Shown: positions 2,117 through 62,816 of the stretch, in pieces
How the letters are laid out: each line of letters opens with the position of its first letter
How positions within the stretch are numbered: position 1 is the first letter of the stretch
IMG/VR virus record: IMGVR_UViG_3300042386_000659
Location: 1-64,000 of that record
Reading direction: 5' to 3' (one strand)
Length of the DNA: 64,000 nt
Source: a virus
Notes under the pieces: model-generated
The model's input: only the letters and a program-made list of their open reading frames with translations
Database searches by the model: none
Told to the model about the DNA's origin: nothing
Made by a program: the position numbers and the translations under genes

Positions 2117-2698
2117 TTAAATTAGGGTCTTTACTATTCTTACCTTCTTCTTGGGACTATAGAAATAATCCTTTAGTATTTGATTGGGTATCTCTGTTAT
2201 TCCCACGGAATTCATGATTTCCATTAACAAATCCAAGTTATGTTCCATAAACACATCCTCGTAATAGTAAATCTTACCCCTATGATATTGCATTAAATCC
2301 TCCGATTGGTCTGCTAATGCCTTAATATACTCCGTGGGTATGTTTGTTAAGTCGTATTCCCTTCTATTGTGCCAACTTTTAAAGTTATCCCCTTTATATG
2401 AATGTGCTGCGTGACTCTCCGCCTGTTCCCACTTATTCCTTCTATCCATCACAATAACCTTATCAAAGGTCTGATACACCCAATCATATGGGAAAACCTT
2501 ATGGTTAACCGTATTATTTAATAACTCCTTTACAAGAACATTGGGGGCGTTTTCAATAAGATTCATCTCATGCCCTCTTTGAAATCGACCGAATGGTTCA
2601 TTTAAACATGTATAGTATCTTGGTAGACACAAACTCATCATATCAAATAGTGAGGTTGTTCCAGATCTACCTATGGATGATATTATACATATCTTCAT
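2117..2698 (-). CDS. Sulfotransferase-like P-loop protein
   Basis: The N-terminus SSIGRSGTTSLFDMM (residues 6-20) matches the PAPS 5'-phosphosulfate-binding loop of the sulfotransferase superfamily, and NEPFGR follows as expected. The 193-residue length is short for the family but seen in phage members. The likely reaction is sulfate transfer from PAPS to a sugar or lipid, by family knowledge only. Its start overlaps the stop of the membrane protein upstream (ATGA). Another sulfotransferase-like gene lies beyond that, and a GT2 and an LpxH-like gene are nearby. This suggests surface or glycan modification. Confidence 0.6.
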   Translation of the reverse strand: MKICIISSIGRSGTTSLFDMMSLCLPRYYTCLNEPFGRFQRGHEMNLIENAPNVLVKELLNNTVNHKVFPYDWVYQTFDKVIVMDRRNKWEQAESHAAHSYKGDNFKSWHNRREYDLTNIPTEYIKALADQSEDLMQYHRGKIYYYEDVFMEHNLDLLMEIMNSVGITEIPNQILKDYFYSPKKKVRIVKTLI

Positions 2699-5773: not shown

Positions 5774-6253
5774 TTATATTATATCAGGGAAGTTCCACAT
5801 TGGGTGGTCGGGAAATATTCTATTACCTTCCACCGTATCTCCATCCTCAATATGTCTAAACATCATATGTTTGTATGGTTGAGAACTAATTGGGTCAAAC
5901 ATAATTGAGGACACATCAGAGAAGACAAAATCATCTGTGTTATAGTATTCCACATCCCTTTCAGTATACACTCTTCTTCTTCTATTACACTCCAAATATC
6001 CTCTATTCCACAAATTACGTCTTGTTCTATCACGATATGGATTAACCACACCGACAATACGACCATCTTCCCATCCTTGAATAAAAGAATCCATTTCTTG
6101 TAGTGTTGCGCCTCTTAAATCCTGTGGTAACATATTCCAATGACGATGTGATATTCCTTCTGGTGGTGCATGTGTTATCTGCAACGGAATATATGGTGCA
6201 TGCAACTCATTACTATATGTGTATCCGTTAAGTAGTTTAAATGGTTTTATCAT
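5774..6253 (-). CDS. Tagged small protein with RMF/CrpP-like motif
   Basis: The 159-residue protein begins MIKPFKLLNGYTYS, a variant of the FKFFxG N-terminal tag shared across this region. Residues about 54-90 read IQGWEDGR...VVNPY...LWNRGYLECNRRRR. That resembles ribosome modulation factor and CrpP (G..AG...NPY....W..G...). The rest is unrecognised. Its start overlaps the stop of the next gene (ATGA), which carries the same two features. If RMF-like it could bind ribosomes, but this is inference from a short motif. Confidence 0.5.
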   Translation of the reverse strand: MIKPFKLLNGYTYSNELHAPYIPLQITHAPPEGISHRHWNMLPQDLRGATLQEMDSFIQGWEDGRIVGVVNPYRDRTRRNLWNRGYLECNRRRRVYTERDVEYYNTDDFVFSDVSSIMFDPISSQPYKHMMFRHIEDGDTVEGNRIFPDHPMWNFPDII

Positions 6254-6552
6254 ACGTATCTTCTTGTTGATGTTCTTCTTGTGTTAAAACAATCCAAATA
6301 ACCCATTTCCCACGCAGTATGTAATGAATATATTAGTTCTTCTCTATTACCGTATGGGTTATTATATATTTCCTCACCTCTTTCACATGCTCTCCACCCC
6401 TGTAGGAATATACTACGAAGTTCTGGTGTGTCATATTCTTGACGAGTTGGTACTTGACTATTGGGTAATCTTCTTAATCTACCATTGGTAATAATAGTAT
6501 TAACCCTACTTTTCTTGGTCAGTCCGTGAAAAAATTTAAATAGGCTTACCAT
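6250..6552 (-). CDS. Tagged small protein with RMF/CrpP-like motif
   Basis: The 100-residue product begins MVSLFKFFHGLTKKS (FKFFxG tag). Residues about 50-90 contain FLQGWRACERGEE..NNPYGN.......AWEMGYLDCFNTRR, the same pattern as the neighbour at 5774-6253. This GW...G...NPY...W..GY core resembles the RMF/CrpP fold. A basic tail follows. It overlaps the upstream gene by 17 bp. Two adjacent paralogous domains suggest duplication. Confidence 0.5.
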   Translation of the reverse strand: MVSLFKFFHGLTKKSRVNTIITNGRLRRLPNSQVPTRQEYDTPELRSIFLQGWRACERGEEIYNNPYGNREELIYSLHTAWEMGYLDCFNTRRTSTRRYV

Positions 6553-6799
6553 CTTCTTCCCATTCTTTAATGTTTCTTAATATTGTTTCCGTTAATTCTT
6601 TTGTTTTATCATCCAATAGTTTCATCATTTCAATATCTTTTGGATTTGTTTCATCCCACGCAGCTTCTTCTCTTGCACCTGATTCATGAATAACATTGTT
6701 AATCATGAACCAACACGACATTTTAATTCTTGTTTCCAACGATGTTTCTTTTAACAACTCACTTATAGTGTTTGATAAAATCTTTCTTGCTTTTGCCAT
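6536..6799 (-). CDS. Hypothetical helical protein
   Basis: The 87-residue product is mostly charged helix (LLDDKTKELTETILRNIKEWEEDG) with no known motif and no FKFF tag. It overlaps the tagged gene downstream by 17 bp and follows the upstream tagged gene by 1 bp, so it belongs to the same operon. Function unknown. Confidence 0.6.
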   Translation of the reverse strand: MAKARKILSNTISELLKETSLETRIKMSCWFMINNVIHESGAREEAAWDETNPKDIEMMKLLDDKTKELTETILRNIKEWEEDGKPI

Positions 6800-6800
6800 A

Positions 6801-7205
6801 TTATCCTCTTCTTTGTAAATTAACTAATGGGACACTTACTCTATAATTTTCAGTATTCCCGTCTCTTGTAATTAAATAAACTATGTGAAACATTCCACCA
6901 ATATTAATTCCACTAACAATCTTTAGTAATGGATAACCATCAGGTTCAAATACGTGCATTTGGTATCCCCTCCAAGGTAAACGAAGGTTCATACGTCTCC
7001 TTACAATATTAATAACATGACCGTCGTGGTTGAGTTGTGGTATTGATATATAACTTGCAGGAACATAGTTCGGGTCTCTTACTGTTTGAGAAACTGTGTT
7101 TATTAAATCTTGTGCAATAGTTCTCCCCGACATTCTTCTTGAAATAGGAAGTGTGTATTCATCACTATATGTGTATCCTTTAAGTAGTTTAAATGGTTTT
7201 ATCAT
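6801..7205 (-). CDS. Tagged small protein
   Basis: The 134-residue protein starts MIKPFKLLKGYTYSDE, almost the same leader as the 5774-6253 product, although the bodies differ. Residues 20-134 are beta-rich (YLITRDGNTENYRVSVPLVNL) and unrecognised. The shared leader on unrelated bodies is the main clue and points to a common targeting or binding signal. Confidence 0.6.
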   Translation of the reverse strand: MIKPFKLLKGYTYSDEYTLPISRRMSGRTIAQDLINTVSQTVRDPNYVPASYISIPQLNHDGHVINIVRRRMNLRLPWRGYQMHVFEPDGYPLLKIVSGINIGGMFHIVYLITRDGNTENYRVSVPLVNLQRRG

Positions 7206-7459: not shown

Positions 7460-7684
7460 TTATCTTCTGTTTAATTGTCTACCCGCAGCAGATGGTGTGT
7501 TTAAATAACATTTATAAGTCATATAACAACTAAATCCAGTTTCCTGCTTGAGAAACTTAAACTCATTATTATACATGTTCATTACGATACAATAATACCC
7601 TTGGAATATAAAAGATGAACCAACCATAAGTCTACATTTATCTTTGTAAGGATTCTTCTGAAAGAACTTGAATTCATTTACCAT
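7460..7684 (-). CDS. Tagged Cys-rich small protein
   Basis: The start at 7684 is chosen because it places the tag MVNEFKFFQKN at the N-terminus and gives only a 7-bp overlap with the upstream gene. A longer frame from 7804 would run deep into that gene. The 74-residue product has a second tag-like segment inside (NNEFKFLKQ, about 40) and four Cys (about 17, 32, 53, 59). Function unknown. Confidence 0.55.
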   Translation of the reverse strand: MVNEFKFFQKNPYKDKCRLMVGSSFIFQGYYCIVMNMYNNEFKFLKQETGFSCYMTYKCYLNTPSAAGRQLNRR

Positions 7685-8070
7685 ATACTTAGTATTTTGG
7701 CGATTCCGATGATTGTGACCATTGTTAACAATATGCTCACAACAACAATACCAATAGGTTCTAACCTCCAACTTTCTTGAAGAACTATCTTTACCTTCGT
7801 CCAAAACTTTGGGTTAACGGTTGTTACCGTTGTTGCTTGAAATAATCTTATTGGGTTATCATTTAAATCTCTCGAATCGTTAGTCATTTGTAATCTTCTT
7901 AAGATATCTTGATGTCTCTCCGGTGTGCCCAACCTACCTCTTAGTATTTCCCTTCTAACATTAATATGACCTTCAGGTGTATCATTATTGAGTGATGCGG
8001 TTGCATAAGTTTCTCCATCCATCACATTCAATGTTCCAACATAACCCCTGAAAAAAACGAACTTAGTCAT
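7678..8070 (-). CDS. Tagged tail-anchored membrane protein
   Basis: The 130-residue product starts MTKFVFFRGYVGT, an FKFFRG variant. A soluble, Arg-rich middle follows. A C-terminal hydrophobic helix (IGIVVVSILLTMVTIIGIA, about 105-123) suggests tail anchoring in the inner membrane, with the tag cytoplasmic. It overlaps its neighbours by a few bases on both sides. Confidence 0.6.
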   Translation of the reverse strand: MTKFVFFRGYVGTLNVMDGETYATASLNNDTPEGHINVRREILRGRLGTPERHQDILRRLQMTNDSRDLNDNPIRLFQATTVTTVNPKFWTKVKIVLQESWRLEPIGIVVVSILLTMVTIIGIAKILSIW

Positions 8071-8432
8071 TACTTAATATTTGAAGTATAAAATGTATTT
8101 GTAGATATTGTTCCTGTAGTTGTAAAAGATCCACCAAAGTTTGCTGTAGTGTAAGTTGTTCCGTTTGGATTTGATGTTGTTAAACTAAATCCTGTTGATA
8201 AACCACTAATTGCTCCACTAAATGGAATCGTATATGTACCAGTACCAGGTGTTGTTGTTATAGTATATGGTTGTGGAGCAATATAACCCGGATTAGTAAT
8301 CCATGTTGGTTGGTAGTTAGTACCACTCCAAGTTGGTAATCTATTTATTTCATTTATTCTATTGATTTCATCCCAATTAATTCCTATCGATTGGTTATCA
8401 ACGTACCCTCTGAAAAATTTGAATTCTCTCAT
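8070..8432 (-). CDS. Tagged Thr/Gly/Asn-rich protein
   Basis: The start at 8432 (MREFKFFRGYVDNQS) is preferred over 8489. It places the tag first and follows the stop of a 34-codon gene at 8446 with 13-bp spacing. Residues 50-120 are low-complexity and rich in Thr, Ser, Gly and Asn (for example TTTPGTGTYTIPFSGA), as in extracellular or virion beta structures. Function unknown. Confidence 0.6.
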   Translation of the reverse strand: MREFKFFRGYVDNQSIGINWDEINRINEINRLPTWSGTNYQPTWITNPGYIAPQPYTITTTPGTGTYTIPFSGAISGLSTGFSLTTSNPNGTTYTTANFGGSFTTTGTISTNTFYTSNIK

Positions 8433-9641: not shown

Positions 9642-10787
9642 ATGAGGATATCAATCACAGAAGAACAATACAATAAGTTAATCCAAGCAAATGAGGTTGT
9701 CGGGGTTCCAGAAGGGATTTACGACACTGCAAAATCAATTTATAGAAAGTATATTGATGGTTTAATTGAAGAGATAAAGTCGAAATTTGGTAATATGAAG
9801 TTGGGTGGTTCTACCGAAGTTGAATTTTCAATAACAGGTGATTACCGTATTGGAGATTTGTCTTTTACAAATGTTGATTTTATGGTCACATTTGATTTTG
9901 ACAAATATAGAAGGGTTGAAATTGAACAAATGAGTCTTGCTATTGGTGATAAATTAACAAATGATTACAAATTAATATACAAAAAAATTAATGATGGAAT
10001 CTCAATGGGTTCGAAATATCAAGTACCTGATGATGTGTCTGAAGAAGATTTAATTAATGGTATTTTAAAATTTGAAACCAAAACGATATCATCAATAGCT
10101 CACGAATTAAAACATGCTTATGACTTCAACAAGAAACCAATAAGAAATGCTGGTGAAAAAGTTAAGTATCATTCTATTGAAGATGTTATGGTTAGTGTGC
10201 GTCCTTTAATGAAATTTAAAATTATGTTATATTATTCACATGTTGTTGAGGAAAGTGTTAGAAACAGTGAAATATACACATTAATGAAACTTAAAGGAAT
10301 TACTAAAAAAGAATTTAAAAACTTCTTATCGAAAACAACCACATATGATTTCCTAAAATACATGATGAATTATGATTACAATAAATTCATAGAGGAAATG
10401 TACAATAGTATTGAAGGAATTGAATCTTTTTTAAGTCATCTTAAAATCGATTATAAAGATATGACCGATGGTGAGAAAGTAACAATGGCTCTTAAAAAGT
10501 TTTATCAAATAGTTTCGAGAAGACGTGATGATTTTCTTGATAATGTTATGATGGATATGCAATCAGATTTAATGATGATGTTAGCTTCTGCACTTGGTAT
10601 TGCTGATAATATTGTTACAACAGGTGAAAACGAAGCAAAAGTTAAAGCAAAGAAAAAAATCAAAAAACATATTAATAGTTACACTGACTATATTGATTTC
10701 TATCAAAAAGAATTATCCGACATTAAAATTTCTGCAACTAATACACTTAAAAAATTAAGTAAATTATATAGTTTAGCAGAAGACTAA
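9642..10787 (+). CDS. Putative virion zinc metalloprotease with head-targeting-like leader
   Basis: The 381-residue product starts MRISITEEQYNKLIQANE, the leader shared with several genes here and resembling a T4 capsid-targeting sequence. The zinc motif HELKH (154-158) with AYD following fits a gluzincin-like HExxH. VEESVRNSE (about 206) may supply a third ligand. The C-terminal third is helical and Lys-rich. It is the only plus-strand gene in this part of the minus-strand block, and it converges on the next gene with a 4-bp overlap. Likely packaged with the capsid and injected or used in maturation, by inference. Confidence 0.6.
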   Translation: MRISITEEQYNKLIQANEVVGVPEGIYDTAKSIYRKYIDGLIEEIKSKFGNMKLGGSTEVEFSITGDYRIGDLSFTNVDFMVTFDFDKYRRVEIEQMSLAIGDKLTNDYKLIYKKINDGISMGSKYQVPDDVSEEDLINGILKFETKTISSIAHELKHAYDFNKKPIRNAGEKVKYHSIEDVMVSVRPLMKFKIMLYYSHVVEESVRNSEIYTLMKLKGITKKEFKNFLSKTTTYDFLKYMMNYDYNKFIEEMYNSIEGIESFLSHLKIDYKDMTDGEKVTMALKKFYQIVSRRRDDFLDNVMMDMQSDLMMMLASALGIADNIVTTGENEAKVKAKKKIKKHINSYTDYIDFYQKELSDIKISATNTLKKLSKLYSLAED

Positions 10788-11119
10788 GATTCAAATCTTA
10801 AAAATCTTATTGTAAGTAAATCGGATGTGATATCAAATCCCCAACCATCATCATATTGTGTGTTAGTATCATGAAATCTTCCGTTTGGTCCGGTTATCGA
10901 TAACACAGGAACACAAAATCTGTTTGGGAATCTACTTAAGAATTCATGTATCCCGTTGCTTTGGGTTTCGACAATATCGTATGTGTAACCATCTAATGGT
11001 AACATACACGTCCATGACCAAGAAGGACTATCATCATCTAAGGTTTCGATATCCATATCTTCGATTGGATAATCTTCGTCCTCTTCATTACCAGTAAAAA
11101 ATTTAAACGCTTTAATCAT
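10784..11119 (-). CDS. Tagged acidic small protein
   Basis: The 111-residue product begins MIKAFKFFTGNEEDED (FKFFxG tag) followed by a very acidic stretch up to about residue 30. The rest is beta-rich (VPVLSITGPNGRF, LLTIRFLRF). Its 3' end overlaps the converging metalloprotease gene by 4 bp. Function unknown; it belongs to the tag family by its leader. Confidence 0.6.
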   Translation of the reverse strand: MIKAFKFFTGNEEDEDYPIEDMDIETLDDDSPSWSWTCMLPLDGYTYDIVETQSNGIHEFLSRFPNRFCVPVLSITGPNGRFHDTNTQYDDGWGFDITSDLLTIRFLRFES

Positions 11120-12072: not shown

Positions 12073-12094
12073 ACCCTGAAATTTATTCAGGGTT
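12073..12094 (-). terminator. Intrinsic terminator of the 12083-12601 gene
   Basis: ACCCTGAA, a short AT loop and TTCAGGGT form a stem-loop that overlaps the stop codon. On the minus strand it is followed by a run of more than eight T. This fits a rho-independent terminator immediately before the next promoter. Confidence 0.7.
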
Positions 12095-12601
12095 GTTATC
12101 TATTGGTTTAATGTTAATTGTTTCAGGTGGATATTCTTTTTCAAAATATGACATTCTTTCAGACACTTTACCATATTCAACAAATGGTTCAATAATATCA
12201 TTATACATGTCATGTAAGTTATCTAAATCTGTTTGTAAATTATCTATATCATTTACTAAGTGGTCAAATTTGTAAAATTCGTCACTATAACGTCCACCAT
12301 TCTCATATTCCTGTTCGTCGAACGAATCTCTAATATCCCAATATTTGTTATTTTTTGCTCTATAAACTTCATGTAGTTTAGAACAATCTTGAACGATTTT
12401 AGAATACTTTGCAGGTTCTTCAAGAATATTACCAATATTGATTGTTTTTAAAAAACCAATTAGTTTACTCATAGATTTCTTACCCTCGATAACATCTTTC
12501 GTTATAGACTCAATATGAGATGGTAGTTCACTCAAATCATAAAATACGGTTTGTTCAACCAATTTACTAAACTGTGCTTCTGTTAAAATAACCTTTTTCA
12601 T
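12083..12601 (-). CDS. Hypothetical protein with head-targeting-like leader
   Basis: The 172-residue product starts MKKVILTEAQFSKLVEQ, the ITExQ(F/Y) leader, with LVE|Q matching a T4-type prohead protease site ((L/I)xE). The rest is helical and acidic with Asn and Tyr (RAKNNKYWDIRDSFDEQEYENG). A TATTTATT box precedes the ATG. Probably an internal virion protein, by inference from the leader. Confidence 0.55.
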   Translation of the reverse strand: MKKVILTEAQFSKLVEQTVFYDLSELPSHIESITKDVIEGKKSMSKLIGFLKTINIGNILEEPAKYSKIVQDCSKLHEVYRAKNNKYWDIRDSFDEQEYENGGRYSDEFYKFDHLVNDIDNLQTDLDNLHDMYNDIIEPFVEYGKVSERMSYFEKEYPPETINIKPIDNNPE

Positions 12602-15000: not shown

Positions 15001-15237
15001 TTAGAAATTTCCAAATAAAAATTGGTAAACCACTTCGGGGATTTTGGTACAAGTAGATTGCACACCTTGATTATCAGTGCATTCAATATGAGGTAAATTT
15101 TTAATATATTCTCTCATATATTTTGGAGCTCTGTTTAATCTACCAACGATATAGTCTCTTGGGTATAGTTTTTCAGATTCATAAAACCCTTCTGAAACAA
15201 CTCTTTGATATTGGGATTCTGTTACAATTACTTTCAT
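15001..15237 (-). CDS. Hypothetical protein with head-targeting-like leader
   Basis: The 78-residue product begins MKVIVTESQYQRVVSEGFYES. The leader VTESQY matches the regional ITExQY pattern, and VSE|G could be a prohead-protease site. The mature part has two Cys (about 54 and 63). A TATTTATA box lies 3 nt upstream of the ATG. Probably a small internal virion protein (inference). Confidence 0.55.
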   Translation of the reverse strand: MKVIVTESQYQRVVSEGFYESEKLYPRDYIVGRLNRAPKYMREYIKNLPHIECTDNQGVQSTCTKIPEVVYQFLFGNF

Positions 15238-18608: not shown

Positions 18609-19262
18609 TTATCCTACAACATTTTTTAATTCATCAATGTGATGATCATCAACCCCAAGTTCAGAACCAACTGGTCTATTCTTCATTGAGTTAACTATGT
18701 CTCTTAAATTATATGGTGCAAAGTCAAGATTCCCATCCATACCAACGTCCATTCTACGTCCATTACCGAACTTTTTATTGTTAGGTAGGTGACAATGTCC
18801 ATGAAGATGAATACGTCCCTTATTCAGTCCATTCCACGAAGCAATTGGATAGTGCATCAACTCAAGTGTTTCACCCAAATAATTTAATTGTAGGAACCAT
18901 TGTGATGATGCAAAATGTCTTTGACAATCCTCACGGTTCCTTTCAATATGGTGGTCATGATTACCAAAAGTTAAATGAATCTCTTTACAGATAATTCTAT
19001 TACGAAACTCTTCTATTTGTTCAAATCCACCAAACGACCAGTCACCTAAATGAATCAATACATCATCTTGACCAACACACTCGTTAATGTTATTTACAAT
19101 TGTTGCATTCATTTTATCTAGATTTGTAAAATCTCTAGTTTGTGCTTCAGGTACGGAACCATCTAACATCCTCCATTTAGTTACACCACGACATATGTTG
19201 GTGTGATTATAATGTGTGTCGGATGTTATCCAAACTTTCCTATCGTTTTCAATCTTTATCAT
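18609..19262 (-). CDS. Calcineurin-like phosphoesterase
   Basis: The 217-residue protein carries TSDTHYNHTNI (about 13), HLGDWSFGG (about 72), FGNHDHH (about 98), MHYPIAS and HLHGHCH (about 148-154), the metal ligands of the family. It resembles the phage phosphoesterases encoded in many T4-like genomes, of unknown substrate. It overlaps the tagged gene upstream by 4 bp. Distinct from the LpxH-like gene at 4505-5194. Confidence 0.8.
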   Translation of the reverse strand: MIKIENDRKVWITSDTHYNHTNICRGVTKWRMLDGSVPEAQTRDFTNLDKMNATIVNNINECVGQDDVLIHLGDWSFGGFEQIEEFRNRIICKEIHLTFGNHDHHIERNREDCQRHFASSQWFLQLNYLGETLELMHYPIASWNGLNKGRIHLHGHCHLPNNKKFGNGRRMDVGMDGNLDFAPYNLRDIVNSMKNRPVGSELGVDDHHIDELKNVVG

Positions 19263-19690
19263 CCTCTGAAAAATTTAAAATCTTTATTATTGTACCTTCT
19301 ATTTGGTGGTTCTATTCTTTCCCTTGCGGACCTAATTGCATCATCTCTTTCTCTCAAAGCTCGTTCTACTCTTGATATCGGTGGTGGAGGTGGAATAGTT
19401 CTACCCCAGTTTGGTATCCTTTGTCCATTAATTAATCCCAATGTTTGAAACCATCTTCTATGTCTCTCGTTACTTTCTCTTTCGTTTTTCGTTCTCTTAT
19501 TCTCTCTTTCTATTTTTTTCATTTCTATATTATTATCCATAAGAATAAAAAACAAAAATGGACCTAAAAATACGGAAAGAAATATGGTTGGTGTTTTGAG
19601 ATTACCTTCTTTGTAATGCCACCTTAAACAATATAATGCAGACAATGTCCAAAAAAACCCAAAGAAAAAAACAATTGGTTGAAATTTCAC
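19259..19690 (-). CDS. Membrane protein ending in an FKFFRG tag
   Basis: The 143-residue product has two N-terminal hydrophobic helices (about 5-25 and 35-53). A long Arg/Glu-rich cytoplasmic tail follows. The last residues are DFKFFRG, the same motif that begins other proteins, here at the very C-terminus. A Pro-rich patch (IPPPPPIS) lies near 100. The tail may be a coiled coil. The C-terminal tag is the notable feature. Confidence 0.6.
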   Translation of the reverse strand: MKFQPIVFFFGFFWTLSALYCLRWHYKEGNLKTPTIFLSVFLGPFLFFILMDNNIEMKKIERENKRTKNERESNERHRRWFQTLGLINGQRIPNWGRTIPPPPPISRVERALRERDDAIRSARERIEPPNRRYNNKDFKFFRG

Positions 19691-41275: not shown

Positions 41276-41512
41276 ATGAACTTCAAATTTTTCAAAGGTG
41301 ATGAAACACCAACACTTCTTTTTCAACCACATACATTTACACCAGAGAATGTTGAGTTTTGTTTTCAGTTCGGAAACAATGAACCTATTGTATTTGCAAC
41401 AGGACCAAATGAATGTTCAATTCGATTAAGTCCAACTTCAGATACCAGTATGTTGTTCACCGACAATGATAAAGAGTTTAAATTATTTGCAAGGGAGATA
41501 CAAAATGGTTAA
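41276..41512 (+). CDS. Tagged paralogue of the upstream small protein
   Basis: The 78-residue product begins MNFKFFKGDETPT (FKFFxG tag). A body related to the 40998-41273 product follows (FCFQFGNNEPIVFATG, DNDKEFKLFARE). The tag is absent from the upstream paralogue, which has a basic helix instead, so the leader was gained or lost after duplication. The next tagged gene overlaps its end by 8 bp. Confidence 0.55.
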   Translation: MNFKFFKGDETPTLLFQPHTFTPENVEFCFQFGNNEPIVFATGPNECSIRLSPTSDTSMLFTDNDKEFKLFAREIQNG

Positions 41513-53244: not shown

Positions 53245-55017
53245 TTAAAAATTATATTTAAGGTTTAAATTAATACTTCTTGTTGGTAAATCAACTGACG
53301 ATCCCCAGACTCTACTAGCATCATTAAATAAGTTATAAAACAACATTGTGTATTCTAAATTTTTATACTTTGTGGTGTATCCAACGTTCACCAATCTCAC
53401 ACCTTTATTGTGTAAAAATTGTCGAACATCATTTCTATCTGCAAATGATAAAGATTGATCAATTGGTTGATATCTACCTTCCACCCATAGCTTATTATAA
53501 TTTAGTTTGATGTAGCCAAAATATGGTACTGTTTTATCAACTGGTTCTGTTGTTCCTGTTAATCTTTTAACACCATAAACATATTCTGCTCTAGCATTCA
53601 CACCTAGTTTAGTTCCAAACAAACTATCATTAAAATAACCTAACGTTGCGCCATTTACTGAGACACCACCAATGTTATCGGTCCTAAATACGTTTGTCGA
53701 TAGTACGGTTACATTAAATGCATCATCTAATTCTTTGAAGTAAACATCAAAATATAAATTACTTCTTTTATAACCAAATCGATATGTTTGACCTCTCTCT
53801 TGTATTAAATCCGGGTTTGGTAATTGTGTACCTCTACCATTTGTCATTGCTTGTTTAATCATCAAATAACTTGGTGCGTTTAAGCTATTGTCATAACTTG
53901 CAAATAGACCTTTGTATCCAACAATTGCTGAATATTCAAAACCATTAAATGGATCAATATCAGTTATTTGAACATTCTTTAATCCTAAACTTGTGTAAAC
54001 TTTTACTTTATAAATTTCATTAATCCAACGAATACCATGCTTTGTTGTTTTATAATCATCGTTTGATACCCCGCCAACTAAACCATTTTCATATCTTATT
54101 TTTTCGATTGTGTTTGTTGAATATATACTAAATGAATGTGGTAATTGATATTCAAGATTTGCGGTATATGCGTCTAGGTGACTAGCAACTTTTTTTGTCC
54201 CATCTAAAATATCTTCCGCACTATTTTGATATGCAAGATTTACACGTAGTCTGTTTAAATTCATCTCATGATTAACAAACAAATATCTTTGTAGTTCCCA
54301 CGTATAAACCGCCGGTCTTTGATAACCAGAACTTCTGAAACCACCGTTCCATCTATCTGTTCTTTCTAAATCATTTGATTGTGAAAAAATTAAAGTTGTT
54401 TTTTGTGTTGAAGACCAGTTGGCTTCAGACACCAATGCTTTTTGGTTGTAAGCACTGTGTTGAAATGTACTATCTGGAGATATAACATTACCATAATCGA
54501 TGTTGTTAAAACCAATACCAAATTTCTTACCTTTATAAGATGCTGATTGGCTAAATCCATCCGTACCACCCACATAATTTAATCCAACATGTGATGATTG
54601 TACACCAACCTTTCTTTCGATTGTTCCACCAATATTACCACCATCTGTAATAGAAATTAACTTTGTAAATTCTAGTGGAACCCATCCAAAATATTGATTT
54701 GGTCCAGTTCTAAATAAACCGTTATTAACCCTAATACCATTAATTGATTGGTCAACTTGATTACCAGTAAACGCACCAACATATGGACTTAATTGTCCCG
54801 GACTTGTTTCTTGAATGCGTGCAGAGTTCAAATATACTTTCGGATTTTTTATTACTTGTTGCACCTGATAGTTGGTGCCACCAACAACAACAACTTCTTT
54901 TAATTCTATTGAAGCTGTGTCTTTTTGAGTTGTACTGTTACCTTTTTGTCCAAATGACATAGTGGTAGTAAACAATAGTGCTAACATTAGCGATAGCATT
55001 GTGATTGTTTTTCTCAT
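53245..55017 (-). CDS. TonB-dependent outer-membrane receptor
   Basis: The start at 55017 gives a signal peptide (MRKTITMLSLMLALLFTTTM, then SFGQ). Longer frames run through the tRNA. After a TonB-box-like IELKEVVVVGG comes a plug domain (about 45-150: PGQLSPYVGAFTGNQVDQSI, NGIRVNNGLFRTGP). A beta-barrel follows and ends NLNLKYNF with the C-terminal Phe for BAM insertion. At 590 residues it is small for the family. It binds and imports a ligand or serves as a surface receptor. Carriage by a phage is very unusual. Confidence 0.85.
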   Translation of the reverse strand: MRKTITMLSLMLALLFTTTMSFGQKGNSTTQKDTASIELKEVVVVGGTNYQVQQVIKNPKVYLNSARIQETSPGQLSPYVGAFTGNQVDQSINGIRVNNGLFRTGPNQYFGWVPLEFTKLISITDGGNIGGTIERKVGVQSSHVGLNYVGGTDGFSQSASYKGKKFGIGFNNIDYGNVISPDSTFQHSAYNQKALVSEANWSSTQKTTLIFSQSNDLERTDRWNGGFRSSGYQRPAVYTWELQRYLFVNHEMNLNRLRVNLAYQNSAEDILDGTKKVASHLDAYTANLEYQLPHSFSIYSTNTIEKIRYENGLVGGVSNDDYKTTKHGIRWINEIYKVKVYTSLGLKNVQITDIDPFNGFEYSAIVGYKGLFASYDNSLNAPSYLMIKQAMTNGRGTQLPNPDLIQERGQTYRFGYKRSNLYFDVYFKELDDAFNVTVLSTNVFRTDNIGGVSVNGATLGYFNDSLFGTKLGVNARAEYVYGVKRLTGTTEPVDKTVPYFGYIKLNYNKLWVEGRYQPIDQSLSFADRNDVRQFLHNKGVRLVNVGYTTKYKNLEYTMLFYNLFNDASRVWGSSVDLPTRSINLNLKYNF

Positions 55018-55050
55018 TTTGTTTTTGTTTAAGAAAAGTTTATAAAATTG

Positions 55051-55140
55051 CGGGGAGGAAGAGATTCGGACTCTCGATTGAATGTTAAGTCCAATAGCAG
55101 CTTCGGAGGCTGTCGGTTTAAACCACTCACCCACCTCCCC
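55051..55140 (-). tRNA. Class II tRNA, Ser-type body, apparent anticodon CCG
   Basis: On the minus strand GGGGAGG pairs with CCTCCCC and the discriminator is G. The D-arm (GGT...ACC), a long variable arm (ATTG...CAAT) and a T-arm with TCCGAAT loop are present. The anticodon loop reads CTCCGAA, giving CCG at 34-36 with T33 and A37. The long arm and G73 fit tRNA-Ser, but CCG would read CGG (Arg). The 27-43 pair is mismatched (A-C). No CCA is encoded. It may be a variant, a damaged copy, or I may have misplaced the loop. Confidence 0.7.
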
Positions 55141-59428: not shown

Positions 59429-60538
59429 TTATCTCCAACCACAATGTCCGGATGATGTTCCGGCATTTACCACTGGAGCTAATCCGGTAACCGCATTTGA
59501 TCCAGTGTCGGTTGCATATATTAATTGCCAACTAGTGTTATTTTGACCCGTTCCATCGTAATTACCTAACATATACTGCCAATCTTGTCCTAATGCTAAG
59601 TTTTCTTCTCCACAGTTTTGGTGTGGTTTAGCTACGTTACCAAGATTCGTATCTGTGGAGTTACTCCACCTTCTTAGGTTATAACCACCATTATATGATC
59701 CCTCGTTACCGCAATATCCCTTACCGACTTTAGATGGTACACCTTTTTGTTGTGCGTGTGCGCCCCATTGTGTTGAGGAACTTGGTGTTTCATTTGAAAA
59801 ATTAAATTTTATACCCGCAGATGTTGTCCACGCATATCCAAAACTTTCATCATAAAATGCACCGGCACCATCGTTACCGCTTATTGACGTTACACCAAAT
59901 CCACTTACATAACTTTCGTTAGATAGGTTAAATTTTTCAATTGTTGTTGATCCACCCGAAATTAAATAGGCAAACTCCGTTTCTTTTTGCATAGTTGCAA
60001 CGTCACTTCTAGCAATACCTGTGTTAAATTTAGCTTGATGAGCATAGTTTGTATCATTAAACATATTGATTGCCGATGTCCGAGTTCCATGAATACTATC
60101 CGGCCCTTTCCATGCTCCATCGTCATTTACTGACCAAATAAACAATATTGTTTTATTACATGCTCCCGATGTATAAGATACTGGATAATCTAATAATTCA
60201 CCAACGTGAGTTGTTTGACTTGTTGAGTTGGTTGTTTTATGAACGTTTCTCCAAGGTGATGAATCTTTATATCCACCAGCCAAATAGGTATATGATAAAA
60301 CTTGTCTATATTTAAATGCTATTGGAATGGTTTCTTGTGCCGCAATTCTCTCCCATCCGTTATCAATATTTGATACTCCAGTATATAACATTAAGAAACT
60401 ACCACTAGTGGATTCTTCCAAATATAAAGAACCAGATAATGGTGAACCAGGTCTGCTTGCTCTAACACCTCTAGGTGGTCTATTAACCACCCTATCTGAT
60501 GTTAAACTACCACTAACTTCTAAATTTTCGTATATCAT
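59429..60538 (-). CDS. Tail fibre/adhesin, copy 1
   Basis: The 369-residue protein starts MIYENLEVSGSLTSDRVVNR, then SPLSGSLYLEESTSGSFLML. It contains a repeated core, GKGYCGNEGSYNGGYNLRRW, and the end GTSSGHCGWR. Two paralogues follow with the same layout. The first about 50 residues look like an attachment domain, and the rest probably binds the host surface. Thr/Ser/Asn-rich beta composition fits. Highest divergence lies in the middle. Confidence 0.75.
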   Translation of the reverse strand: MIYENLEVSGSLTSDRVVNRPPRGVRASRPGSPLSGSLYLEESTSGSFLMLYTGVSNIDNGWERIAAQETIPIAFKYRQVLSYTYLAGGYKDSSPWRNVHKTTNSTSQTTHVGELLDYPVSYTSGACNKTILFIWSVNDDGAWKGPDSIHGTRTSAINMFNDTNYAHQAKFNTGIARSDVATMQKETEFAYLISGGSTTIEKFNLSNESYVSGFGVTSISGNDGAGAFYDESFGYAWTTSAGIKFNFSNETPSSSTQWGAHAQQKGVPSKVGKGYCGNEGSYNGGYNLRRWSNSTDTNLGNVAKPHQNCGEENLALGQDWQYMLGNYDGTGQNNTSWQLIYATDTGSNAVTGLAPVVNAGTSSGHCGWR

Positions 60539-60551
60539 AATTTAATTATTT

Positions 60552-61658
60552 TTATGCTCTCCATCCACAATGTCCAGATGATGTTCCAGCGTTTACACCG
60601 GGGTTTAATCCACTTACACTAGTTGTTCCTGTGTCTGTTGTGTAGCTAAATTTCCAACTTGTATTATTTTGTGCTCCATCATAATTACCTAACATATATT
60701 GATGGTCTTGACCCAATGTGAAATTTTCTTCTCCGCAGTTAGGGTGCGGTTTTGAAACGTTACCAATGTTAGTATCATTGGCGTTGCTCCATCGTCTAAG
60801 GTTGTATCCACCATTATAAGAACCTTCATTTCCAGCGTAACCTTTTCCAACTTTTGAACTAATTCCTTTTTGTTGTGAGTGTGCACCCCATTGTGTAGAA
60901 GATGCAATTGTTTCTGTTGCAAAACTCATTTTAATACCTGCCGAAGATGTCCAACCATATCCAAAGTTTTCATCAGAAAATGCAGAACCTCCATCGCCAC
61001 CATCGATTGTTGATAAATGAAAACCAGTTGATATTGTTTCCGTGCTTAAATCAAATCTTTCGACGGTAGCACTACCACCAGTAAACATATATGCCACTTC
61101 TGTCTCTTTATGCATGGTTCCTAAATCACTTCTAGCAGTGGTAATATTAAACTTGGTTTGATGTGTATATTTTGTATCATTAGCCATGTTAATTGCTGAA
61201 GTTCTAACACTATCTACACTACTAGGCCCTTTAAATGCGTTATCTGTATTAACAGACCAAACAAAAAAGATATATCTGCTACAAGCCCCTGATGTATATG
61301 ATGCTGGGTAATCTAATAATTCTCCAATGTGAGTTGTCTGATCAGTAGAGTTAATTGTTTTGTGAACATTTTTCCAAGGGGAGGAATCTTTGTATCCACC
61401 CGCAAGAAAAGATGTGCTTATTATCTGTCTGAATTTAAATCCAACATTAGCATTTACTTGTGACGATACTCTAACCCAACCACTATCATTGTTACTAACA
61501 CCAACATAAACCATTAAAAAACTACCACTAGTGGCTTGTTCTAAATATAAAGAACCTGTTTGTGGACTACCTGGTCTATTTGCCCGTGACCCAACTGGTG
61601 ATTTTATTACACCTTGTGCTTTTAAGGACCCACTAATTTCAATATTTTCGTGTAGCAT
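60552..61658 (-). CDS. Tail fibre/adhesin, copy 2
   Basis: The 368-residue protein repeats the attachment region (ENIEISGSLKAQGVIKSP) and the GKGYAGNEGSYNGGYNLRRW core. It shares longer identical DNA stretches with copy 3 than with copy 1 (for example a 43-bp block at about 60721). It probably presents an alternate receptor-binding surface. The TATTTATA box upstream (61663-61670) suggests a late transcript. Confidence 0.75.
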   Translation of the reverse strand: MLHENIEISGSLKAQGVIKSPVGSRANRPGSPQTGSLYLEQATSGSFLMVYVGVSNNDSGWVRVSSQVNANVGFKFRQIISTSFLAGGYKDSSPWKNVHKTINSTDQTTHIGELLDYPASYTSGACSRYIFFVWSVNTDNAFKGPSSVDSVRTSAINMANDTKYTHQTKFNITTARSDLGTMHKETEVAYMFTGGSATVERFDLSTETISTGFHLSTIDGGDGGSAFSDENFGYGWTSSAGIKMSFATETIASSTQWGAHSQQKGISSKVGKGYAGNEGSYNGGYNLRRWSNANDTNIGNVSKPHPNCGEENFTLGQDHQYMLGNYDGAQNNTSWKFSYTTDTGTTSVSGLNPGVNAGTSSGHCGWRA

Positions 61659-61662
61659 ATCT

Positions 61663-61670
61663 TATAAATA
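61663..61670 (-). promoter_or_regulatory. TATTTATA box before tail fibre 2
   Basis: ATTATATTTATAAG on the minus strand, 4 nt before the ATG of the fibre gene at 60552-61658. Confidence 0.35.
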
Positions 61671-61676
61671 TAATTT

Positions 61677-62816
61677 TTATGTTCTCCATCCACAATGTCC
61701 AGATGATGTTCCATCATTTACTCCTGGTGGTAGACCAGACGGATTAACAGTCCCACTATCGGTAGCATAAACAAATTTCCAACTAGTATTTACCTGTGCA
61801 CCGTCATAACAACCTAACATATATTGATGATCTTGTCCCAATGTAAAATTTTCTTCTCCGCAGTTAGGGTGCGGTTTTGAAACGTTACCTAAATTAGTTT
61901 CAGTAAAAACATTCCATCTTCTTAAATTATAACCTCCGTTATATGTTCCTTCATTTCCCGCATAACCTTTACCCACCTTTGAACTAATACCTTTTTGTTG
62001 ACCGCTCGCACCCCACTGTTGATTATTTGTGAATGTATCATTTGCGAAGAATAGTTTTGTGCCACTTTGTTGTGTCCATCCATAACCATAATTCTCATCT
62101 GAAAATCCTGATGCACCAGAAGGACCACTACCTGTAATTGATGTTTCCATTGCAGTTAAAGTGTACGGTCCACCATAGTACACACTATACATCGTTTCAT
62201 TTGTTAAATTAAATTTCTCAACAGCAGCCACACCAGCACCGAATATCCACGCAAACTCTGTTTCTTGATGTAAAGTACCGCAGTCATCTCTTGCATTTGC
62301 TAAATCCCATTTTGATTGGTGAGCATATGCGGTTTCATTAACCATGTGTACACCACTAGTCCATGTTGAATGAATAGTACTATCTCCTTTAAATGTACCA
62401 TCTGTGTTTGTTGACCATAGAAATAAAATACTTTTACTGCAAGCACCAGATGTATATGATGCTGGGTAATCTAATAGTTCACCTAGGTGAACCGTTTGGT
62501 CTGTTGAATTTGTTGTTCTATGAACATTCTTCCATGGTGATGCGGATTTATAACCACCAGCTAAGTATGAGTAATTAATAACCTGTCTATACTTGAATCC
62601 TGTTCTATCTGTATTTTGTGAACCAACTGGTTCCCAACCACCATCATAATTCGACGATGCCGTATATGTAACCACAAAACTACCACTAGTAGATTCTTCC
62701 AAATATAATGACCCAATATCAGGACTAGATGGTCTATTCGCCCTCGGTCCTCTAGGTATGATATATTGTCCACTTACATTTAATGAACCACTTACTTCAA
62801 CATTCTCTCTTAACAT
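61677..62816 (-). CDS. Tail fibre/adhesin, copy 3
   Basis: The 379-residue protein has MLRENVEVSGSLNVSGQYII, the GSLYLEESTSGSFVVTYT segment, a variable middle (YYGGPYTLTAMETSITGSG) and the GKGYAGNEGTYNGGYNLRRW core. It ends GTSSGHCGWRT. It is the longest of the three and has an insert around residues 215-235. Function as for the other copies. Confidence 0.75.
   Translation of the reverse strand: MLRENVEVSGSLNVSGQYIIPRGPRANRPSSPDIGSLYLEESTSGSFVVTYTASSNYDGGWEPVGSQNTDRTGFKYRQVINYSYLAGGYKSASPWKNVHRTTNSTDQTVHLGELLDYPASYTSGACSKSILFLWSTNTDGTFKGDSTIHSTWTSGVHMVNETAYAHQSKWDLANARDDCGTLHQETEFAWIFGAGVAAVEKFNLTNETMYSVYYGGPYTLTAMETSITGSGPSGASGFSDENYGYGWTQQSGTKLFFANDTFTNNQQWGASGQQKGISSKVGKGYAGNEGTYNGGYNLRRWNVFTETNLGNVSKPHPNCGEENFTLGQDHQYMLGCYDGAQVNTSWKFVYATDSGTVNPSGLPPGVNDGTSSGHCGWRT

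Follow-up and report, generated by a model that had tools for sequence, protein, structure and literature searches.

A terminal FKFF-type tag on small phage proteins and an RMF/CrpP-like helical hairpin as its recurrent body

Two adjacent ORFs (P0001 and P0002) of an uncultured large phage encode small proteins that begin with a short FKFFxG-type tag and continue with a domain whose best reading is a two-helix fold like that of ribosome modulation factor (RMF) and CrpP. Dozens of different small proteins bear the tag, either at the extreme N-terminus or exactly at the C-terminus. Both ORFs would be members of an extensive, shuffled repertoire of small phage proteins with a common disordered terminal tag, and those members that could be given a promoter class seem to be mostly early-type. 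We consider it about evenly balanced whether the tag is a clade-specific terminal docking motif of early phage proteins, among which the RMF-fold hairpin recurs as a body. Of the two features, the FKFF tag is more interesting than the resemblance to RMF.

Results

Two neighbouring ORFs combine a tag with an RMF-type motif

The window, i.e. the whole stretch of 64,000 nucleotides analysed, contains P0001 and P0002 along with further tagged proteins (Table 1). Both ORFs are encoded on the minus strand and overlap by four bases (6250-6253), as in an operon. P0002 starts with MVSLFKFFHG and P0001 with MIKPFKLLNGY; the FKLL of the latter is replaced by FNFF or FKFF in some of its homologues. The RMF-type motif reads GWEDGRIVGVVNPYRDRTRRNLWNRGYLEC in P0001 and GWRACERGEEIYNNPYGNREELIYSLHTAWEMGYLDC in P0002. 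An earlier note on this DNA had described both neighbours as a tag fused to GW..NPY..W..GY(L)(E/D)C, and this arrangement was found in both ORFs. In hhalign, the P0001 and P0002 families proved to be related (probability 94, E 1.3e-7), with the tag included in the alignment. P0002 homologues from L005, L019, L027 and L006 carry a second hairpin, which is missing from P0002.

An untagged protein of 87 aa sits inside the tagged operon (window 6536-6799; L100 9426-9689). By eye, the window and G001, a relative of 335,630 bases, have almost the same version of it, while the tagged neighbours diverge. Pfam and PHROG searches with this protein were without match. It is a candidate partner of the tag.

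Table 1. Tagged proteins of the window and their parts. Hydrophobic stretches were judged by eye; the window rows of P0001 and P0002 are part of the pooled profile whose E-values are given.
Feature	Position	Strand	Remarks
P0001, 159 aa: tag, conserved RHWNMLPQDLRG stretch, RMF-like core, variable tail	5774..6253	-	homologues in L001-L008
Tag of P0001, FKLLNG, residues 5-10	6224..6241	-	
Putative RMF/CrpP-like two-helix core of P0001	5957..6115	-	pooled profile E 5.6e-18, AlphaFold2 helices, RMF match
P0002, 100 aa: tag and RMF-like core	6250..6552	-	
Tag of P0002, FKFFHG, residues 5-10	6523..6540	-	
Putative RMF/CrpP-like two-helix core of P0002	6271..6429	-	pooled profile E 4.8e-19, AlphaFold2 helices, RMF match
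Tagged protein (MIKPFKLLKGYTYSDE), other body	6801..7205	-	first 42 bases as in P0001, bar one
Tagged protein MVNEFKFFQKN	7460..7684	-	
Tagged protein MTKFVFFRGY, hydrophobic C-terminal stretch	7678..8070	-	
Tagged protein MREFKFFRGY	8070..8432	-	
Tagged protein MIKAFKFFTG	10784..11119	-	
Protein ending NNKDFKFFRG, tag at exact C-terminus, hydrophobic N-terminal stretches	19259..19690	-	
Tagged protein MNFKFFKG	41276..41512	+	
Tagged mini-MCP: MVKNFKFFHG and short major-head-protein segment	41505..41753	+	phrog_138 E 4.5e-5

Sequence profiles and predicted structures point to an RMF/CrpP-like fold

On their own, the window proteins remained below threshold. P0001 scored E 0.43 and 11.1 bits against the RMF family PF04957 (curated cut-off 27.9 bits) and E 0.0079 against phrog_1757; P0002 scored E 0.036 and 14 bits against the CrpP-related model NF041856 (curated cut-off 35 bits). 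No match was obtained for P0002 with PF04957, for P0001 with NF041856 or for PF04957 in a search of the window's own genome. Among relatives from IMG/VR, a two-hairpin P0002 homologue (L005:6306-6752) matched PF04957 with E 4.5e-5 and L030:1766-1996 with E 7.1e-4, the best relative attaining 23.9 bits, and L006:12037-12723 matched NF041886 with E 9.5e-4. The curated cut-off for RMF (PF04957) or CrpP was reached by no protein tested, from the window or among the relatives. PF04957 was listed for seven of ten proteins (four of these at E<=0.02) and an NCBIfam RMF/CrpP model for three of the ten. With six further hairpin proteins, PF04957 was listed for three in the Pfam search (best E 0.0046), and the same kind of search in NCBIfam gave an RMF/CrpP match for none. 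In named phages, tblastn gave no match for P0001 and only matches at E 4 to 9 for P0002 (nine), E 1 to 7 for the two-hairpin homologue (seven) and E 4 to 10 for the protein at 10784 (eight).

The likeness became clearer with a profile of 14 phage domains that includes no RMF row (A5). Against 177,635 distinct PDB sequences, it gave three matches at E<=10, and all three were RMF (E 0.009, 0.049 and 0.063). Aligned with ten enterobacterial RMFs in hhalign, A5 had a score of 22.1 (probability 43, P 2.4e-4); 200 column shuffles gave 8.0 on average and 15.4 at most, and the reversed profile scored 6.7. The single-family alignments A1 and A7 were not significant against RMF in hhalign, and A7 was out of register.

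AlphaFold2 predicted helices at residues 43-57 and 75-98 of P0002 (mean pLDDT 72) and at residues 50-62 and 75-91 of P0001, of which the model is poor overall (mean pLDDT 58); the core blocks reached about 80-90 in both. The tag stretch was disordered in both models (pLDDT <50). Alignment and models agree in that the core motif and the two-helix fold with the linker of RMF are present in the window proteins. In Foldseek, RMF had the highest probability among the 50 matches listed for P0001 (9iot_y, probability 0.93, E 1.0, TMt 0.70, 2.9 Å, 24% identity) and among the 26 listed for P0002 (probability 0.41, E 3.2). VIA-align placed RMF first for P0001 (Z 6.1, and four of the six top rows) as well as for P0002 (Z 6.6, tied with complement C5a). 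These Z values are modest and by themselves prove no fold; since the structural matches combine with the sequence profile, an RMF/CrpP-like fold is the best reading for the domains of the two ORFs. The C-terminal beta region of P0001 matched uL2 and EF-P barrels (Z 3 to 3.8), but was set aside as model confidence is too low there.

Convergence of a simple helical hairpin, with no relatedness to RMF, would be compatible with the sub-threshold scores of the window proteins, with the non-significant or out-of-register single families, with VIA Z values of 6 to 7 and the tie with C5a, and with the Foldseek E-values of 1.0 and 3.2. It is nevertheless unlikely, given that the sequence-only search of the PDB returned RMF alone, that the shuffles never attained the hhalign score and that relatives reached E 4.5e-5. 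The placement of the domains close to RMF in the earlier note is thus upheld by profile (A5, hhalign against shuffles, relatives) and fold together. In the RMF-profile search itself, the likeness is carried by the relatives and the 14-domain profile and not by the window proteins alone; profile matches as well as structural matches to RMF were obtained.

The tag occurs at the ends of many different proteins

The window contains six copies of TTYAARTTYTTYNNNGG, where 0.07 are expected and none of 100 shuffles had more than two. All six copies are located at ORF ends, five of them N-terminal and one exactly C-terminal (19259-19690). The consensus of the tag is F-K-F-(F/L)-x-(G/K/N). A mechanical count in the fetched phage DNA, which fixed F[KNRV][FM][FL] and includes near-copies and chance ORFs, gave 140 distinct N-terminal forms, with K at position 2 in 126, F at position 3 in 138, F or L at position 4 in 99 and 41, and G, K or N at position 6 in 62, 37 and 15, respectively. 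Among 16 C-terminal strings, 12 were DFKFFRG-like and four look like chance.

With occurrences treated as independent, F[KNRV]F[FL] was terminal in 7 of 12 cases in the window's record (p 1e-5) and in 21 of 31 cases in G001 (19 N- and 2 C-terminal; p 8e-17), which was fetched in 17 pieces with ORFs cut where they cross piece borders. The control words F[DEST]F[FL] and [KNRV]FF[FL] were terminal in 1/10 and 0/2 cases in G001. FF[KNRV][FL] was also somewhat terminal there (4/9, p 0.003), and F[KNRV][FL]F was terminally enriched as well, though this word has FKFF in common with the tag. In G001, most of the tagged genes stand together in a single run of small genes (3.3-17.5 kb).

Over 18 records, the tag DNA pattern occurred 67 times and its mirror control four times, a count that is no survey because tag patterns or P0001 had served to select 17 of the 18 records. 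A scan of 2.9 million contigs, of which the output was inspected in part, yielded C-terminal DFKFFRG in 10 stretches and N-terminal MxKxFKFFxG in 33. The tag was not found at ORF ends of a named relative, Flavobacterium phage immuto (NC_055915, covered in four pieces), where the tag word matched twice, both times antisense and away from the ends. A weak core-profile match in immuto (E 0.0099), in a protein annotated DUF3310, was judged to be chance. In a search of open-licence full text, the matches listed included no paper on the FKFF tag and none on phage proteins that join a tag to an RMF fold.

Codons and upstream DNA differ between tag copies. For this reason, and because C-terminal copies exist, a DNA-level element such as a duplicated leader or a ribosome-binding site was rejected as the general cause of the tag. 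The genes starting at 6253 and 7205 have their first 42 bases in common with one difference. A second terminal signature was observed as well: many proteins end with K(S/T)LI, NKTLI or similar (window 2117-2698; several genes in L011 4994-12011).

As one short peptide stands at either end of otherwise different proteins, the tag is most likely a docking motif, which would direct the proteins bearing it to a single partner or site within the infected cell.

The hairpin goes along with the tag

In complete ORFs with a hairpin at E<1e-4, a tag-type motif preceded the hairpin in 23/23 cases (one with a GTG-type start) compared with a background of 203/4827 ORFs in which such a motif follows an M; tagged proteins had served to train the hairpin profile, and the 23 include many homologues. 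The automatic count of 21/26 contained ORFs cut at locus ends and a search window shifted by weak extra domains. An independent PF04957 search of 21 records at E<=1 gave six matches in four records, and all six lie in tagged ORFs by coordinates, one of them without an ATG before the tag. With the pooled profile, 28 hairpin matches were found in 12 of the 21 records, six of them in five genes of G001. The hairpins fall into at least six families, some of which have two hairpins. Among the bodies recognised, the RMF/CrpP-fold hairpin appears to be the most re-used one. Judging from its predicted fold, it would most likely be a small protein- or RNA-binding unit, which is a guess.

This constant pairing also bears on the idea that the tag is a terminal degron, pulled by an AAA+ unfoldase for the timely removal of early proteins. 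Degrons of AAA+ proteases are unstructured and aromatic and can stand at either chain end, as holds for the tag. A gene for a Clp-type double AAA+ ATPase lies behind an early-type motif in G001 (109705-111717, L105). Such a gene was found in only 1/20 records searched, most of them fragments, and a degron leaves the pairing of hairpin and tag unexplained. A degron, drawn by analogy, is distinctly unlikely.

The ribosome-binding features of RMF are missing

In RMF, residues R3, K5 and R11 are important for ribosome binding, R3 and K5 touch 16S helix 28, and dimers need G23 and R45 (PMC8778775). The stretch of 15 residues that precedes the first core glycine had a charge of +5 in 10/10 RMFs and of -3 to +1 in 17 phage domains, 15 of which were at or below zero. 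The basic N-terminal arm with R3, K5 and R11 is missing from the phage domains. In the alignment, the R45 position is a leucine in P0001 and P0002, and the glycine aligned with G23 is present in P0002 and gapped in P0001. Judged by sequence, the known ribosome grip of RMF is missing although the fold is alike. Because the rRNA-binding and dimer residues of RMF are missing, ribosome hibernation in the way of RMF is unlikely.

The best named capsid-protein matches are Flavobacterium phages, and a host among the Bacteroidota is therefore presumed. The rmf gene is described as mainly gammaproteobacterial (PMC8778775), which speaks against a role of RMF-like domains in controlling translation on the ribosomes of such a host, with the tag serving that role. 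The fold, the core motif and the retained G23-aligned glycine of P0002 would suit such a role; the arm charges, the leucine at R45 in both proteins, the gap at G23 in P0001 and the many other bodies that carry the tag make it quite improbable. The proposal that ribosome binding ties the tag to host translation thus found no support: the basic arm and R45 are missing, no RMF/CrpP cut-off was passed, and many bodies of unrelated kinds, one of them a capsid-protein fragment, carry the tag too. A link to membranes, suggested as well, may hold for some carriers with hydrophobic stretches recognised by eye (7678-8070 and 19259-19690) and not for the whole set.

Tagged capsid-protein fragments and other genes of the window

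The mini-MCP of L041 matched phrog_138 (major head protein) with E 1.4e-11 at profile positions 189-247 of 444. In 21 records partly chosen by the mini-MCP gene, phrog_138 was matched in 18, of which 17 have a small ORF with one common segment; the match in G017 falls elsewhere in the profile. The tag was present in all nine small mini-MCP loci read (L085-L093). G001 has a separate full MCP beside its mini-MCP (302940-303137). One idea is that the mini-MCP acts as decoy or competitor of capsid assembly.

Further away in the window, three tandem paralogues of ~370 aa with a GSLYLE stretch look tail-fibre-like by eye (59429-62816), and a long ORF at 53245-55134, likewise by eye, looks outer-membrane-receptor-like. 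The first codons of the latter overlap a predicted tRNA-Arg (55050-55140), and its start may be wrong.

Promoter motifs suggest early expression of tagged genes

Enriched leader words gave a late-type motif, (G/A)TATTTATA. Of eight genes behind it, five are of head protease, terminase, tail tube, tail fibre or baseplate types, and the other three were without match. The early-type motif TA(T/C)NTTTG(T/C) is taken here as a host-type Bacteroidota promoter. Matches inside genes amounted to 17/86 for the late and 111/159 for the early motif, which is weak for this reason. The window showed no enrichment of the T4 late promoter TATAAATA (10 copies, 15.8 expected), and Rfam at gathering scores gave no match there.

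Genes were assigned to a class by chaining them to the nearest upstream motif, and P0001 with its FKLL lies outside the FKFF expression used. FKFF genes were early in 8, late in 2 and unassigned in 18 cases (8/10 of those assigned early-type), four of the eight early ones belonging to one operon. Genes with capsid-tag-like N-termini (ITEEQ, LTESQ and KLLDII types) were early in 2, late in 19 and unassigned in 3 cases (19/21 late-type), which differs from the FKFF genes with a Fisher p of 2e-4. For other genes, the numbers were 120, 171 and 250, respectively (FKFF against other, p 0.02). That tagged genes are mostly early-type has promoter motifs as its sole basis, which is suggestive, not proof.

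The third signature, with N-termini such as ITEEQYNKLI, LTESQ and KLLDII, was seen in the window at 9642-10787, 12083-12601 and 15001-15237 and many times in G001. Mostly behind the late-type motif, it would fit capsid-targeted internal proteins.

Internal proteins of T4 have a short common N-terminal capsid-targeting sequence. A tag by which its carriers are packaged in the head, to be ejected into the next host, would resemble this sequence and would go along with the tagged MCP fragment common in the records. The early-type leaders of the FKFF genes argue against such cargo, as late-type leaders go with the ITEEQ, LTESQ and KLLDII signal and mostly not with FKFF; C-terminal tag copies exist, and some carriers look membrane-bound by eye. 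Packaging into the head is thus very improbable for FKFF proteins.

Discussion

Starting from the docking motif, a wider reading can be put forward tentatively, as one that is possible rather than probable: a sorting code of the clade's own, in which F-K-F-(F/L)-x-(G/K/N) at either end would send dozens of shuffled early mini-proteins to one hub, with a separate late N-terminal code for head proteins. The cargo would then comprise RMF-fold hairpins, capsid-protein mimics and membrane proteins. This idea of early/late sorting is testable thanks to the tagged capsid fragment and the separate N-terminal signal of late type.

Small phage proteins are hard to read as most of them resemble nothing known. 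A terminal tag that dozens of them have in common, together with a body of RMF fold that recurs among these, is a handle on the putative docking target. At the same time, the hairpin proteins are a warning that resemblance to RMF in a phage protein does not equal ribosome hibernation when the basic arm is missing.

Compared with known systems, the hairpin proteins are most like RMF (PF04957; PDB 6h4n, 4v8g, 2jrm, 9iot) in having two helices joined by an (N/C)PY linker, the motif G(Y/W)..(A)...G....PY......W..G(W/Y), and matches by profile and fold. Unlike RMF, they have no basic N-terminal arm, have lost R45 and stay below the Pfam cut-off; they are also larger, bear a terminal tag and have two hairpins in some cases. 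CrpP is associated with ciprofloxacin-modifying activity. With the CrpP-related and phage Rmf/CrpP-fold proteins (NF041856, NF041886, NF041887), the core motif is common (best relative E 9.5e-4), but the phage scores are below the cut-offs, and the models contain no tag as far as the matched ranges show.

The tag resembles the T4 capsid-targeting sequence in being a short peptide common to many different phage proteins at their N-terminus. The T4 type is N-terminal only and typical of late head proteins, with carriers present in virions and cut by the prohead protease, whereas FKFF is also C-terminal and goes mostly with early-type leaders (8/10 of the FKFF genes assigned, by a class read from promoter motifs); the ITEEQ, LTESQ and KLLDII types of these phages fit the T4 kind better. 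The mini-MCP is similar to the T4 gp23-type major capsid protein (phrog_138) in profile segment 189-247, but consists of this short segment only, behind a tag. Degrons of the ssrA kind are, like the tag, short, unstructured and read from the chain end, and differ from FKFF in sequence.
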